From a bacterium (GTDB lineage Bacteria > Blakebacterota > Blakebacteria > Blakebacterales > Blakebacteraceae), in contig JALGVQ010000208.1 of NCBI GenBank assembly GCA_025774615.1, forward strand, positions 1 to 6,211: a DNA stretch of 6,211 nucleotides. Direction: 5' to 3'. A program made the translations under genes and the position numbers. How positions within the stretch are numbered: the first letter of the stretch is position 1; each line of letters starts with the position of its first letter. Positions 1 to 5,803 of the stretch are shown piece after piece. Below the pieces are notes generated by a model, which did no database searches, was not told where the DNA came from, and saw only the letters and a list, made by a program, of their open reading frames with translations.

Positions 1-1341
1 GACGAGGTAGAGCCGGATGAGGCTCGCCGATATTCCGGCGGCCCCCTGCATGTAGCCGGTCTGAGACTGGATGAAGTCAGGTCGGGTACGATGCTCGGCC
101 ACCGGCCACTTCACCATGCCGTCACCTGCCTGAACAGCCCGGCTCATCAGGATATCGCCGCACTCCTTCGCGCCGTCGAGGTACTGCTTCTCATCCGTGA
201 CAAGATAGAGGTCGAGCAGGTAATTCAGGATCCCGGCGGTACCACAGCAGATGCCGAGGTTGTTCCAGTAACCGGAGGGGCTTTCACCCGGTTGAAGGCC
301 CGAATCGATCAGGTAGCGTGCTCCGGCCTCAGCCGGTCCAGAGAGTGCCTGCACCATGTTCTCTTCCGGTCGCGGCAGGCCGCTCTCCTGCATGAAGAGT
401 CGCCCGGTGCCGGCCGGGCCGTGGCACCAGCCGAGATATTGAAGGTCCTCTCCATCACCCTCATGGTGGAATACCACGCAGCCGTCCGCCTCACCGTGGG
501 CCTGCAGCCACGAGATCCCCGAGGCGCGGGCTGCCGAGAAGAGGCTTGCGACTTCGCCCATCGAGTTGTCGGCGGCGTACCGGGCCGCCCGCCCGAGGAA
601 GAACGCGACGCCGGCCGTACCATGAGAGAAATTCGGATAGTGGAGGCCGCCCTCATCGGAGATCCTCCAGTAGCGGTCCCCCTCACTCTCATCGTCCTCG
701 ATCGCCGTGTCGGTCAGCCACCGGGCAGCGTCGATCGCCACGTCGAGATACGCGCGCTCGCCACTGACTTCGAAAGCCTCAAGGAGCAGGAGACCGGTAC
801 CGGAGGTGCCCGAGATCATGTCGGTCACCCCGTTCCATGTGGTCCCGTTTTGCAGGGGACGACTCCAGGTCACGATAGTGTCGGCCAGCGAGAGTGCCTG
901 TCGGCCGAAGCTGTTCCCATCCTCCAGAACGCGGGATGCCTGCAGGTGAACCGCGGCAGCTCCGGCAATCCCGGTGTAGAGGCCTGCGTCCCGGTATCCG
1001 GTGAGGGTGGTCCGGGCGAGAGATTCATCGAGTCCGGCCAGAGCGCGGCGTACAGCGTCCTCCCACTTCGGATCACCTGTTGCCACTGCCGCCTGCAGAA
1101 GGGCGTGGATGCGACCCGGTTGACCGTGGTAGAGAGTGATGTCCCTCATGGGAGAGTCCGATTCGTCGGGGACGTTGGGGTAGAGGGAGGCGCCTTCGGT
1201 CTCCTCGATTGCATGGCTCTCGATCCATTCGAGTCCCGCCAGGGCCGTGTCGAGATAGGCGCTCTTCGATGGCAGGATCCAGAGGATGGAAGCAGCCGCC
1301 AGAACGGGGATCACGATCTCGAGAGCCGTTGGTTTACGCAT
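1..1341 (-). CDS. Exported LanC-like protein with CCG zinc motif (3' end off the window)
   Basis: The frame stays open for 447 codons to the window edge. The ATG is preceded by AGGAG (1350-1354) with 8 bases between. LanC and LanCL proteins are alpha/alpha toroids built from seven repeats, each with a Gly-rich motif. All seven are visible: LYHGQPG (70-76), LYTGIAG (121-127), MISGTSG (175-181), SHGTAG (239-244), WCHGPAG (305-311), CCGTAG (365-370) and MQGAAG (431-436). By motif match to NisC, D174 corresponds to catalytic D141, H240 to H212, C306 and C365 to zinc ligands C284 and C330, and C366 takes the place of H331. Residues 1-28 look like a signal peptide or anchor (basic start, hydrophobic 9-23, then SKSA), so the protein should act outside the cytoplasm, unlike known LanC cyclases. 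The seventh repeat is present, so only a few C-terminal residues are probably missing. No precursor peptide or dehydratase gene is seen, so cyclase activity is unproven. Family call strong, function unknown. Confidence 0.9.
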   Translation of the reverse strand, partial: MRKPTALEIVIPVLAAASILWILPSKSAYLDTALAGLEWIESHAIEETEGASLYPNVPDESDSPMRDITLYHGQPGRIHALLQAAVATGDPKWEDAVRRALAGLDESLARTTLTGYRDAGLYTGIAGAAAVHLQASRVLEDGNSFGRQALSLADTIVTWSRPLQNGTTWNGVTDMISGTSGTGLLLLEAFEVSGERAYLDVAIDAARWLTDTAIEDDESEGDRYWRISDEGGLHYPNFSHGTAGVAFFLGRAARYAADNSMGEVASLFSAARASGISWLQAHGEADGCVVFHHEGDGEDLQYLGWCHGPAGTGRLFMQESGLPRPEENMVQALSGPAEAGARYLIDSGLQPGESPSGYWNNLGICCGTAGILNYLLDLYLVTDEKQYLDGAKECGDILMSRAVQAGDGMVKWPVAEHRTRPDFIQSQTGYMQGAAGISASLIRLYLV

Positions 1342-2460: not shown

Positions 2461-3891
2461 ATGAAAAAGGGAATACTCGCCTGCGTACTGATCGCGCTTC
2501 CGGTTGTGTCGCTGTCGCTGATCGCGTCATCGTGCGTCGATGATCAGAACACGATCGCGGAGGAGTACGGGGCCGATGCCGCGCGGATCATCGAAGCTGT
2601 GAGGTCACAGGGCCTGCAGTTCGAGAAGCTTGTGGAACTGTGCGACGGGATCGGTCCGCGTCTGGTCGGATCGCCCGCCGGCAGAGTGGCACGCGAGTGG
2701 GCGATGCAGACGATGCGCGCCGACGGTGGGGACAAGGTTCGGGAGGAGGAGGTGATGGTCTCCCACTGGGTGCGCGGCAGTGAGGCGGCCTGGATGACCC
2801 TTCCCCACTGGAGGGCGATACAGATCACCGCGCTGGGTAACAGTGTCGGAACGCCGGCCGACGGCATCGAGGCCGATGTTGTCGTGGCAGCCGATTTCGA
2901 GGAATTCGAAGCACTCCAGCCAGGCGATGTGGCGGGGAAGATCGTTCTTTTCAATTTCCCCATGCGACGCACCAGCCGCGACATGTCGGGATATGGAGAA
3001 GCAGTGGCCTACCGTTCGCAGGGGCCGGCGGTCGCCGCCCGGAAGGGCGCGGTAGCATGTCTCGTGAGGTCCGTGGGAACCGGGCCGGCCGGGAACCTGC
3101 ATACCGGCATGACTGCGTATGAAGAGGGGGTGGTGCCGATACCCGCCGCGGCGCTCACCATGGCCGATGCCGGTTCGATCGCCCGCCTCGTCAGGTCGGG
3201 AACGCAGGTGCGTCTCCGCCTTGAACTCGATGTCAGGATGCTTCCTGATGTACAGGGAGCCAATGTGGTGGGTGAACTGAGGGGAAGTGAACTCCCAGGA
3301 GAGGTAGTCGTCATCGGAGGGCATTTCGATTCGTGGGATCTCGGGACCGGTGCCCACGATGACGGAACGGGATGTGTGGCTGCGATGGAAACGTTGAGAA
3401 TCCTCAACCTGCTCGACCTGCGGCCGCGCCGCACAATCCGGGTGGTGCTCTTCGCTGCAGAGGAAGTCGGAGGACTGCGCGGCGGGAATGCCTATGCCGA
3501 CGGGCACGCGGATGAAGCCTCTCAGCACATCGTCGCGATCGAGTCAGACGGCGGTGCCGGTCCGATGATCGGTTTCGGTATTTCCGGGACAACGGAGGAG
3601 GGCAGCGCGATCGTCAGAAATATCCTCCGCCTGCTCGCTTCGGTCGGGGCTGATGAACTCCGTCTCGGCGGGGGAGGTCCCGACATCGGTCCCCTCGGCG
3701 CCCACGGAGTTCCCCTGCTTGGAGTATGGGCCAGTACGGAACTCTATTTCGATTATCATCATTCCGAGGAAGATGTCGTTGAAAATGTCGAGCCGTCACT
3801 GCTGGCCGATCAGACTGCCGCAATGGCGGTGATGGCGTATATCCTGGCGGATATGGAGTCCCCGTTGCCGCGGATATCCCGGAACCGGTGA
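2461..3891 (+). CDS. Exported M28 metallopeptidase, carboxypeptidase Q-like, with PA domain
   Basis: A 476-residue protein, close to the roughly 470 of animal carboxypeptidase Q. The chosen ATG has GGAGG (2446-2450) and AGGA (2453-2456) upstream and gives a clean export signal: MKK, a hydrophobic stretch, then ASSC at 22-25. That is a loose lipobox, so a lipoprotein anchored at C25 or a secreted protein are both possible. Residues 30-120 hold the CPQ-like segment IGPRLVGSP. A protease-associated domain spans about 125-250. The catalytic M28 part follows: GGHFDSWD (H288, D290), HDDGTG (D300), AAEE (E334 as general base, E335 as ligand), ESDGG (D363) and YHHSEED (H433/H434). All expected ligands for a two-zinc centre are present, so it should be active. 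These enzymes release residues from peptides or dipeptides outside the cytoplasm. Substrate unknown. The upstream transporter may be co-expressed. A longer in-frame ORF reaches back to 2230 but only overlaps EamA. Confidence 0.93.
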   Translation: MKKGILACVLIALPVVSLSLIASSCVDDQNTIAEEYGADAARIIEAVRSQGLQFEKLVELCDGIGPRLVGSPAGRVAREWAMQTMRADGGDKVREEEVMVSHWVRGSEAAWMTLPHWRAIQITALGNSVGTPADGIEADVVVAADFEEFEALQPGDVAGKIVLFNFPMRRTSRDMSGYGEAVAYRSQGPAVAARKGAVACLVRSVGTGPAGNLHTGMTAYEEGVVPIPAAALTMADAGSIARLVRSGTQVRLRLELDVRMLPDVQGANVVGELRGSELPGEVVVIGGHFDSWDLGTGAHDDGTGCVAAMETLRILNLLDLRPRRTIRVVLFAAEEVGGLRGGNAYADGHADEASQHIVAIESDGGAGPMIGFGISGTTEEGSAIVRNILRLLASVGADELRLGGGGPDIGPLGAHGVPLLGVWASTELYFDYHHSEEDVVENVEPSLLADQTAAMAVMAYILADMESPLPRISRNR

Positions 3892-4375: not shown

Positions 4376-5623
4376 ATGAAAAAGATTCGCAAACGCATTA
4401 TCGAGGATCGTGTAACGAACAGACTCCGTTCGCACGGTGGAATCTTGCTGACTGGCCCGAAAGCAGTCGGAAAGACAACTACTGCTCGAACTTTCGCTGC
4501 GTCAGAGGTTCGTCTGGATCAGGATCGGGCAGCTTTGACTGCGGCCAGGACTGATCCGCGTCTTGTACTTGATGGTGAGTATCCTCGCCTCATCGACGAA
4601 TACCAACTGGCATTGGGTATGTGGGACGCTGTCCGAGGTCGCATCGATGACATTGGCGGGAAAGGGTTATTCCTATTAACAGGATCCTCATCTCCGCAGG
4701 ACGATCAGATCAGCCATACTGGTGCACGTCGAATCGCAGTTGTACCCATGCGCACCATGACTCTTCATGAACGTGGACTGGCCAGTGGGGATGTGTCAAT
4801 AGGTGCTCTATTGGACGGGGAACCGGCTTCGGCAGGTTCACACTCCTTCACCGTCAGTGAAGCGATAACGTCCCTTTCGATCGGAGGGTGGCCGGACAAT
4901 CTCTCTCTACCTCTCGATGATGCCCTCGATGCCAATACAGATTATATCGATGTTATCGTGAATACGGATATCCGCCAGGTTGATGGCGTAATGCGTGATC
5001 CCGGCGGAGTTCGGCGATTGCTGACCTCATATGCCCGCAATGTGGCGACTGATGCATCATTGAGCACTATCAGACGGTCATCAGAACAACCTCCCAGTGA
5101 ATCGACGATCAACGACTATATCAAAGCACTGAATCGTCTCTTTCTCATTGAAGATCAAGAAAACTGGAAGCCGAAGCTGCGTTCGCGGATCAGACTGGCC
5201 GCGACACCGAAACGCCACCTCGCCGATCCTTCACTTGCGGTTGCAGTATTAGGTGCGACACCTGAGCGACTACTGGGACCGGAGATCGAATTGGCCGGAT
5301 TCCTATTCGAGTCCCAGGTTGTTCATGATTTGCGTGTCTACGCGCAACCTCACCGGGCAGGGATTCGATTCTATCGTGACAATAAGGGATTAGAGGTAGA
5401 TGTCATTGTTGAATCTGTTGACGGCCGCTGGATAGCCATTGAGGTCAAGCTCGGTCATCATCGAGTTGATGAGGGAGCAAGAAATCTTCTGGCACTGCAA
5501 AAGAAACTGACAGATGAAGCCAATGCCTCATGTAGAGCTCTCATGGTCGTCGTAGCGGATAGCCCGACCTATACAAGGCCTGATGGAGTTATAGTAACTT
5601 CAATTGCCTCACTTGGACCTTAG
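4376..5623 (+). CDS. AAA_14/DUF4143 family ATPase with PD-(D/E)XK-like C-terminus
   Basis: A 415-residue protein, normal length for this family. ATG 4376 follows GAGGA (4366-4370) with 5 bases between. The N-terminal AAA_14 domain has Walker A GPKAVGKTT (27-35, K33), Walker B RLIDE (71-75, D74/E75) and the family motif LLTGSSSP (100-107). The middle, about 212-260, has the usual stretch from LLTSYARNVATDASLSTI to STINDYIKALNRLFLIED, predicted as a winged helix. The C-terminal DUF4143 domain holds FYRDNKG, then EVD (D342) and AIEVK (E356, K358), the D...ExK pattern of PD-(D/E)XK nuclease folds. Such ATPases are widespread, often single-gene and mobile; their function is not settled. Catalytic residues of both domains are intact. 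GC (about half) and codon use are lower than in the genes to the left, which suggests transfer. It stands alone with its own promoter. Confidence 0.9.
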   Translation: MKKIRKRIIEDRVTNRLRSHGGILLTGPKAVGKTTTARTFAASEVRLDQDRAALTAARTDPRLVLDGEYPRLIDEYQLALGMWDAVRGRIDDIGGKGLFLLTGSSSPQDDQISHTGARRIAVVPMRTMTLHERGLASGDVSIGALLDGEPASAGSHSFTVSEAITSLSIGGWPDNLSLPLDDALDANTDYIDVIVNTDIRQVDGVMRDPGGVRRLLTSYARNVATDASLSTIRRSSEQPPSESTINDYIKALNRLFLIEDQENWKPKLRSRIRLAATPKRHLADPSLAVAVLGATPERLLGPEIELAGFLFESQVVHDLRVYAQPHRAGIRFYRDNKGLEVDVIVESVDGRWIAIEVKLGHHRVDEGARNLLALQKKLTDEANASCRALMVVVADSPTYTRPDGVIVTSIASLGP

Positions 5624-5727: not shown

Positions 5728-5743
5728 TATTCGGGGGGACAGG
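5728..5743. repeat. Repeat B, right copy
   Basis: TATTCGGGGGGACAGG, 15 of 16 to the copy at 4237-4252. Its last bases are the start of the GGACA tandem array, so the expansion seems to have begun inside this repeat. Confidence 0.6.
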
Positions 5744-5803
5744 ACAGGACAGGACAGGACAGGACAGGACAGGACAGGACAGGACAGGATACGTGTGTCC
5801 GAA
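5730..5803. repeat. REP-like inverted repeat enclosing the GGACA array
   Basis: TTCGGGGGGACA (5730-5741) and TGTCCGAA (5796-5803) are imperfect inverted repeats: TTCGG...GGACA against the reverse complement TTCGGACA. Palindromes with GGGGACAG and CTGTCCCC ends are known as REP elements linked to RAYT/Y1 transposases, and this resembles a reduced one with the pentamer array as its loop. The same arm pair occurs inverted in order on the left of the ATPase (4108-4115 and 4239-4250). Assignment to the REP class is inference. Confidence 0.4.
5737..5786. repeat. Pentanucleotide microsatellite, ten perfect GGACA copies
   Basis: Ten uninterrupted GGACA units span 50 bp and end in a diverged GGATA (5787-5791). 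There are no spacers, so it is not CRISPR. It is noncoding and lies about 50 bp upstream of the antitoxin operator. Such perfect short repeats change length by slipped-strand mispairing, so copy number may vary between strains. Confidence 0.95.

Follow-up and report, generated by a model that had tools for sequence, protein, structure and literature searches.

A LanC-like protein predicted to act outside the cytoplasm and its relatives across bacterial phyla

Known LanC chemistry is cytosolic: bacterial lanthipeptide ring closure and, in eukaryotes, glutathione addition to dehydrated peptides (PMC9934072). The first gene in a 6,211-nucleotide stretch of bacterial DNA (the window) encodes a LanC-like protein, P0001, that begins with what looks like an export signal. 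We asked where such a protein would work and what it would do there. Reading the sequence by eye, the first-pass annotation had proposed a role outside the cytoplasm, perhaps in thiol or peptide chemistry, and not in lanthipeptide maturation. The window is the entire contig C299 of a draft genome in 324 contigs, and the gene and its start are laid out as follows.

1..1341, minus strand: LanC-like protein P0001, 447 residues, from the open reading frame, Pfam, comparison with the sibling species and a structural model; open at the contig end.
1350..1356, minus strand: Shine-Dalgarno-like AGAGGAG ahead of the ATG, read from the sequence.
1258..1341, minus strand: residues 1-28, the N-terminal export/anchor segment MRKPTALEIVIPVLAAASILWILPSKSA.
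1270..1317, minus strand: residues 9-24, hydrophobic core of the N-terminal segment.

Translation starts at an ATG at base 1341, with AGAGGAG 9 bases upstream. At its other end, base 1, the frame is cut by the end of the contig. A sibling species (G001) has a LanC-like protein with 74% identity to P0001, and by comparison with it about 17 C-terminal residues are missing, so the description of the toroid as otherwise complete was nearly right.

At least 399 relatives were found when about 85,000 species genomes were searched with an alignment of five sequences as query. P0001 matches the Pfam family PF05147 (LANC_like) with 109.9 bits (cut-off 23.2), and the family was matched by 69 of 69 aligned members. 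An AlphaFold2 model of P0001 built with 69 relatives (mean pLDDT 90.5) has the LanC alpha/alpha toroid, with Z scores of 24-36.5 to LanC, LanCL, LanM, LanKC and LanL structures. It matched the cyclase domain of CuvL (Z 36.5), GCR2 (35.2), LanCL2 (34.5), and LanCL1 (33.7) and NisC (31.7), the two structures that the first-pass annotation had named for comparison. The best PDB matches are all of LanC type, well above GH47 at Z 23. Four stretches of the protein carry the putative active site and its surroundings.

622..624, minus strand: H240 of PNFSHG, counterpart of the active-site acid H219 of LanCL1 and H212 of NisC (alignment; PMC9934072).
421..426, minus strand: C306, a predicted zinc ligand, and H307, counterpart of the enolate stabiliser H277 of LanCL1, in GWCHG.
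244..249, minus strand: C365-C366 of ICCG, the other two predicted zinc ligands, of the three-cysteine type (alignment).
46..108, minus strand: residues 412-432, the conserved hairpin W..AEHR..P.....QTG.MQG, a mark of the exported branch.

In LanCL1, zinc is bound by C276, C322 and H323, H219 protonates the enolate, H277 steadies its oxygen, and glutathione is held by R364, D367 and E374 (PMC9934072). In P0001, C306, C365, C366, H240 and H307 are near-invariant in the branch and invariant in the 69 aligned members, as are several glycines. The complete thia-Michael catalytic set is conserved, which makes the proposed thiol or peptide chemistry plausible. The hairpin (W412..A415-E416-H/N-R418..P421.....Q427-T428-G429.M431-Q432) is absent from LanM proteins, and most cytosolic standalone relatives have AW.R there in place of AEHR. 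In sequence it would lie near the LanCL1 region that binds the glutamyl end of glutathione, and its conservation so close to that region suggests a specific small-substrate pocket.

The other genes of the window are these.

1482-2414: EamA transporter, divergent from the LanC-like gene.
2461-3891: M28 peptidase with a PA domain and a lipoprotein-like signal (LIASSC), divergent from the LanC-like gene.
4376-5623: DUF4143/AAA_14 ATPase, in a low-G+C stretch close to the contig end.
5880-6194: ParD-family antitoxin (48.3 bits, cut-off 46.2), close to the contig end.

The order LanC, EamA, M28 is kept in sibling G001, where genes for a carbon-nitrogen hydrolase and an NhaC antiporter lie downstream of the LanC gene; NhaC recurs as a neighbour at L048. 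In G003, from a second genus of the family, only the last ~55 LanC residues lie between EamA and NhaC (L017, 1696-2073), a remnant that reflects either gene decay or an assembly fault. The stretch with the ATPase and ParD genes has a G+C content of about 0.52 as against 0.62 and looks like an acquired module; a perfect GGACA pentamer in 10.6 copies (5737-5789) lies between the two genes.

In Gemmatimonadota, M19 dipeptidase genes were found near 10/39 members (0/40 random windows), a PLP decarboxylase near 15/39 (0/40) and beta-propeller amidohydrolases near 11/39 (2/40), all three comparisons being inflated by kinship. M20 peptidases neighbour members in Bacteroidota, at L035 a D-cysteine-desulfhydrase-family enzyme is encoded a few bases upstream of the LanC gene, and several members form operon-like arrangements with genes for peptidases or PLP enzymes. 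The common thread is the breakdown of amino acids and peptides, joined in two places by sulphur enzymes; it is suggestive and not decisive. A separate D-amino-acid theme was dropped: D-aminoacylases do neighbour members at L035, L062, L081, L157, L160, L161 and L149, but their frequency near members (8/39) is close to that in random windows of the same phylum (6/40). In one locus from Eubacteriales (L094, 1407-5163), a cytosolic standalone LanC gene lies directly downstream of a PatB C-S lyase, whose match is over the cut-off, and a Cys/Met-metabolism PLP enzyme; this gene set is possibly a thioether pathway.

On balance, we favour the reading that P0001 is an extracytoplasmic zinc-dependent thia-Michael/retro-Michael enzyme of an exported LanC branch, serving peptide and amino-acid scavenging or the removal of electrophiles and not lanthipeptides. 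Several observations tell against it: neighbourhoods differ between phyla, the Gemmatimonadota enrichment being inflated by shared ancestry; no gamma-glutamylcysteine ligase or BshC was detected in the host; and a few members are fused to DUF5107/TPR, dockerin or C25-like regions (DUF5107, dockerin and C25 labelled by eye), which could mean another role.

Another role might be hydrolysis. The LanC fold could have been re-used in an exported hydrolase, for example of glycans, that keeps the zinc and the thiolates and cuts a glycosidic or amide bond. Members have a weak Pfam likeness to toroidal glycosidases (GH127 in 40/69, GH76 in 17/69 and GH88 in 15/69), the LanC domain of one member stands behind DUF5107-like and TPR parts, another has a dockerin-like tail (labels by eye), and sulfatases, amidohydrolases and peptidases are among the neighbours. 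We nevertheless regard a hydrolase as unlikely. The glycosidase matches are weak, that of P0001 to GH127 being under the cut-off and limited to a 31-residue stretch, the structure search places all LanC enzymes above glycosidases, and all of the LanC catalytic residues are invariant, which would not be needed for a new reaction. HypBA1, a GH127 enzyme, also has a C..CC zinc motif. Kinship with GH127 through this motif was considered and rejected; because the P0001 match covers profile positions 173-203 and is under the cut-off, we take it as a resemblance between toroid repeats.

We then looked at the partners that a lanthipeptide synthesis would need. The LanM dehydratase domain PF13575 was found neither in the source genome (G000) nor in sibling G001 or six other carriers, and two plasmid controls matched. 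The LanB dehydratase domain PF04738 gave no match in G000, in a search without any control match. No lanthipeptide precursor was found among the window's open reading frames of at least 60 amino acids or in the neighbour clusters, and no precursor or transporter gene recurs in those clusters. P0001 scored 77.6 and 123.8 bits against the LanKC and LanL equivalog models, far under their cut-offs of 575 and 650, and a Pfam search detected no kinase domain in it. Given eight carriers without PF13575 and controls that matched, lanthipeptide synthesis is unlikely; together with the scores and the catabolic neighbours this upholds the view that the protein does not serve lanthipeptide maturation. The same results bear on a cyclase that would close rings on a dehydrated precursor after export. 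The LanC fold and catalytic residues would suit it, but the absence of a LanM-type dehydratase from the eight carrier genomes, of a LanB-type match in the uncontrolled search and of a recurring precursor or transporter gene makes such an enzyme very improbable.

If P0001 handles a thiol, glutathione made by the host is not an obvious one. The gamma-glutamylcysteine ligase families PF04262 and PF04107 were absent from the 82-85% complete drafts of G000 and G001, with controls that matched, and the bacillithiol gene BshC was not found in the same two drafts; the missing glutathione genes argue against host-made glutathione. Candidate partner thiols are cysteine or cysteinyl peptides released by the neighbouring peptidases.

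The N-terminal segment has the composition described by the first-pass annotation: R2 and K3 make the N-terminus basic, a hydrophobic run spans residues 9-24 (9-23 had been given), and the small residues of S-K-S-A precede helix 1. One way in which export could have been illusory, with the hydrophobic part inside the first barrel helix, disagrees with the AlphaFold2 model, in which residues 1-24 are disordered (pLDDT < 50) and that helix starts at residue 28. Standalone relatives in Bacillota and Streptomyces are without the segment and begin directly at helix 1. The segment is thus an addition and not part of the toroid. In sibling G001, 25 of the first 30 residues are the same, and similarity between the two proteins begins at the called Met. 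For this pair, dN and dS are 0.14 and 0.40 over the first 28 codons and 0.19 and 1.08 over the remaining ones, values that come from small numbers. We found no good signal peptidase site: in P0001, position -3 relative to A28 is taken by K26, and Q25-K26 is present in the sibling. With no convincing cleavage site after it, the segment in the source species is likelier to be an uncleaved inner-membrane anchor than a cleaved signal.

Export signals were then compared across the family. The best 80 of the at least 399 loci come from Aminicenantes, Gemmatimonadota, Planctomycetota, Acidobacteriota, Bacteroidota, Armatimonadota, Verrucomicrobiota, Binatota and others, and nearly all of the best 79 have an export signal ahead of the same helix. 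The signals are of three kinds, which vary by phylum: Sec, lipoprotein (with a lipobox) and twin-arginine (Tat). A set from Gemmatimonadota was added to give 98 distinct proteins. A simple hydrophobicity threshold over the first 70 residues was positive in 63% of neighbouring genes and was replaced by a strict signal rule, by which 94 members were scored. It finds a signal in 67/94 members and in 32% of the genes next to them, and a Tat-like motif in 33/94 members (35%) as against 2.7%; we used the strict-rule Tat counts since a looser labelling over-counts basic Sec signals (L028, L029, L076). None of five standalone cytosolic relatives has a signal under the strict rule. Many of the members missed by it have clear signals with a mis-called start (e.g. 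L039, L098, L036 and L091) or are truncated genes. L086, L094 and L100 appear to be genuine cytosolic proteins.

That the route differs between phyla while its signal occupies one position indicates that export itself is what is kept. Conservation in the sibling, absence from standalone relatives and the other kinds of signal in other phyla also mean that the segment of P0001 has not arisen by chance. The family-wide Sec, lipoprotein and Tat signals strongly support the predicted role outside the cytoplasm. That P0001 is nonetheless cytosolic, its hydrophobic segment being a mis-called start or a cytoplasm-facing membrane tether, would fit the lack of a clear signal peptidase site in the source species and the cytosolic location of some standalone relatives, but is scarcely credible. 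The ATG is preceded by a ribosome-binding site, conservation of the protein sets in at this Met, selection is purifying, and relatives have Tat and lipoprotein signals in the same position.

Scores to the family profile mark the limits of this branch. Of 249 genomes of one phylum, 29 have a member at 441-606 bits; one other protein scores 251 and all the rest score 158 or less. In 149 genomes of another phylum, six score about 600 bits or more and the next scores 176. Judged by this gap in two phyla, the exported LanC-like family is distinct and well separated from other LanC proteins. A quick tree, with many unresolved forks and long branches, places LanM and LanL on one side. The exported label clusters strongly on it (3 changes as against 14 in shuffles), but the tree does not settle the number of signal gains or losses. 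A viral-contig scan with a two-sequence alignment as query yielded no relatives, and a wider one yielded a single weak relative. No description of exported, Tat, dockerin-linked or Gemmatimonadota LanC-like proteins was found in the open-licence literature, as judged by which the exported branch is apparently undescribed so far.

A few members have additional parts. In an Aminicenantes protein (L044, 3872-8254), a single frame of 1461 residues runs from a signal peptide through a part resembling DUF5107 (by eye) and TPR repeats to an exported LanC domain. In a protein from Planctomycetota (L074, 3412-6822) the LanC domain has a C25-protease-like C-terminus, and in one from G060 (L008, 1438-3843) it has a dockerin-like tail, both labelled by eye.

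A second family, made up of standalone LanC-like proteins with a CCG motif, occurs in Bacillota, Actinomycetota and gut contigs (L014, L106, L013, L009 and L012). It is cytosolic and has AW.R or AY.R in place of AEHR; we found no description of it in the open-licence literature either. Three of these proteins (Mesobacillus L014, Nonomuraea L106 and L013 from a faecal contig) share the CCG motif with the exported branch and score 289-377 bits against its family profile, compared with 98-132 for LanM and LanL, but are without a signal and without QTG.MQG and have AW.R for AEHR. P0001 carries the marks of the exported branch, namely the export signal ahead of helix 1 and the hairpin with AEHR..P and QTG.MQG.

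Among characterized systems, the LanL cyclase domain (CuvL, PDB 8car/8cav) is the best structural match to P0001, at 23% identity, and shares its C..CC motif as read from the alignment. LanL is also the best NCBIfam model for P0001, yet with the score far under the cut-off given above, and unlike P0001 it has kinase and lyase domains, is cytosolic and works with a precursor peptide. LanCL1 and LanCL2 resemble P0001 in being standalone toroids with a CHG that holds the enolate-stabilising His, an acid His and the zinc-ligand positions. They differ from the exported branch in being cytosolic and in having a Cys-Cys-His zinc site where Cys-Cys-Cys is predicted for the branch, which also has a longer conserved hairpin where LanCL1 has its glutathione residues R364, D367 and E374. 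A subgroup with a three-cysteine zinc site has been described (PMC11251773). LanM enzymes of the ProcM/HalM2 type have such a site, like that predicted for the exported branch, but unlike P0001 they are fused to a dehydratase and act on leader-bearing precursors.

For the thia-Michael/retro-Michael enzyme that we favour, export and fold are well supported, and the chemistry can be sketched from its relatives. The N-terminal segment would send P0001 across the inner membrane; in the source species the protein probably stays anchored with its toroid in the periplasm, and in other lineages it would be secreted through Sec, exported as a lipoprotein or carried by Tat. The Tat route would let members in Gemmatimonadota load their zinc-thiolate site before they enter an oxidising compartment. 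Bound by C306, C365 and C366, zinc would activate the sulphur of a thiol or thioether, H307 would steady the enolate, and H240 would donate or take the alpha proton. The result would be addition to, or elimination from, an alpha,beta-unsaturated substrate, small or peptide, that comes from outside the cytoplasm. The role would be amino-acid and peptide scavenging or electrophile removal, and not lanthipeptide ring closure.

Extended to the whole branch, the reading is more tentative, and we would put it at slightly under an even chance: an extracytoplasmic LanC branch of many phyla, using three export routes, would carry out thiol-Michael/retro-Michael chemistry in the periplasm. Its substrates would be free dehydroamino acids, thioethers resembling lanthionine or other electrophiles, and its work would be tied to peptide and amino-acid scavenging, with no relation to lanthipeptides. 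If such a widespread exported branch exists without LanM dehydratases, zinc-dependent sulphur-to-alkene chemistry would also take place outside the cytoplasm, and the branch would provide a bacterial counterpart for the standalone role of LanCL proteins.
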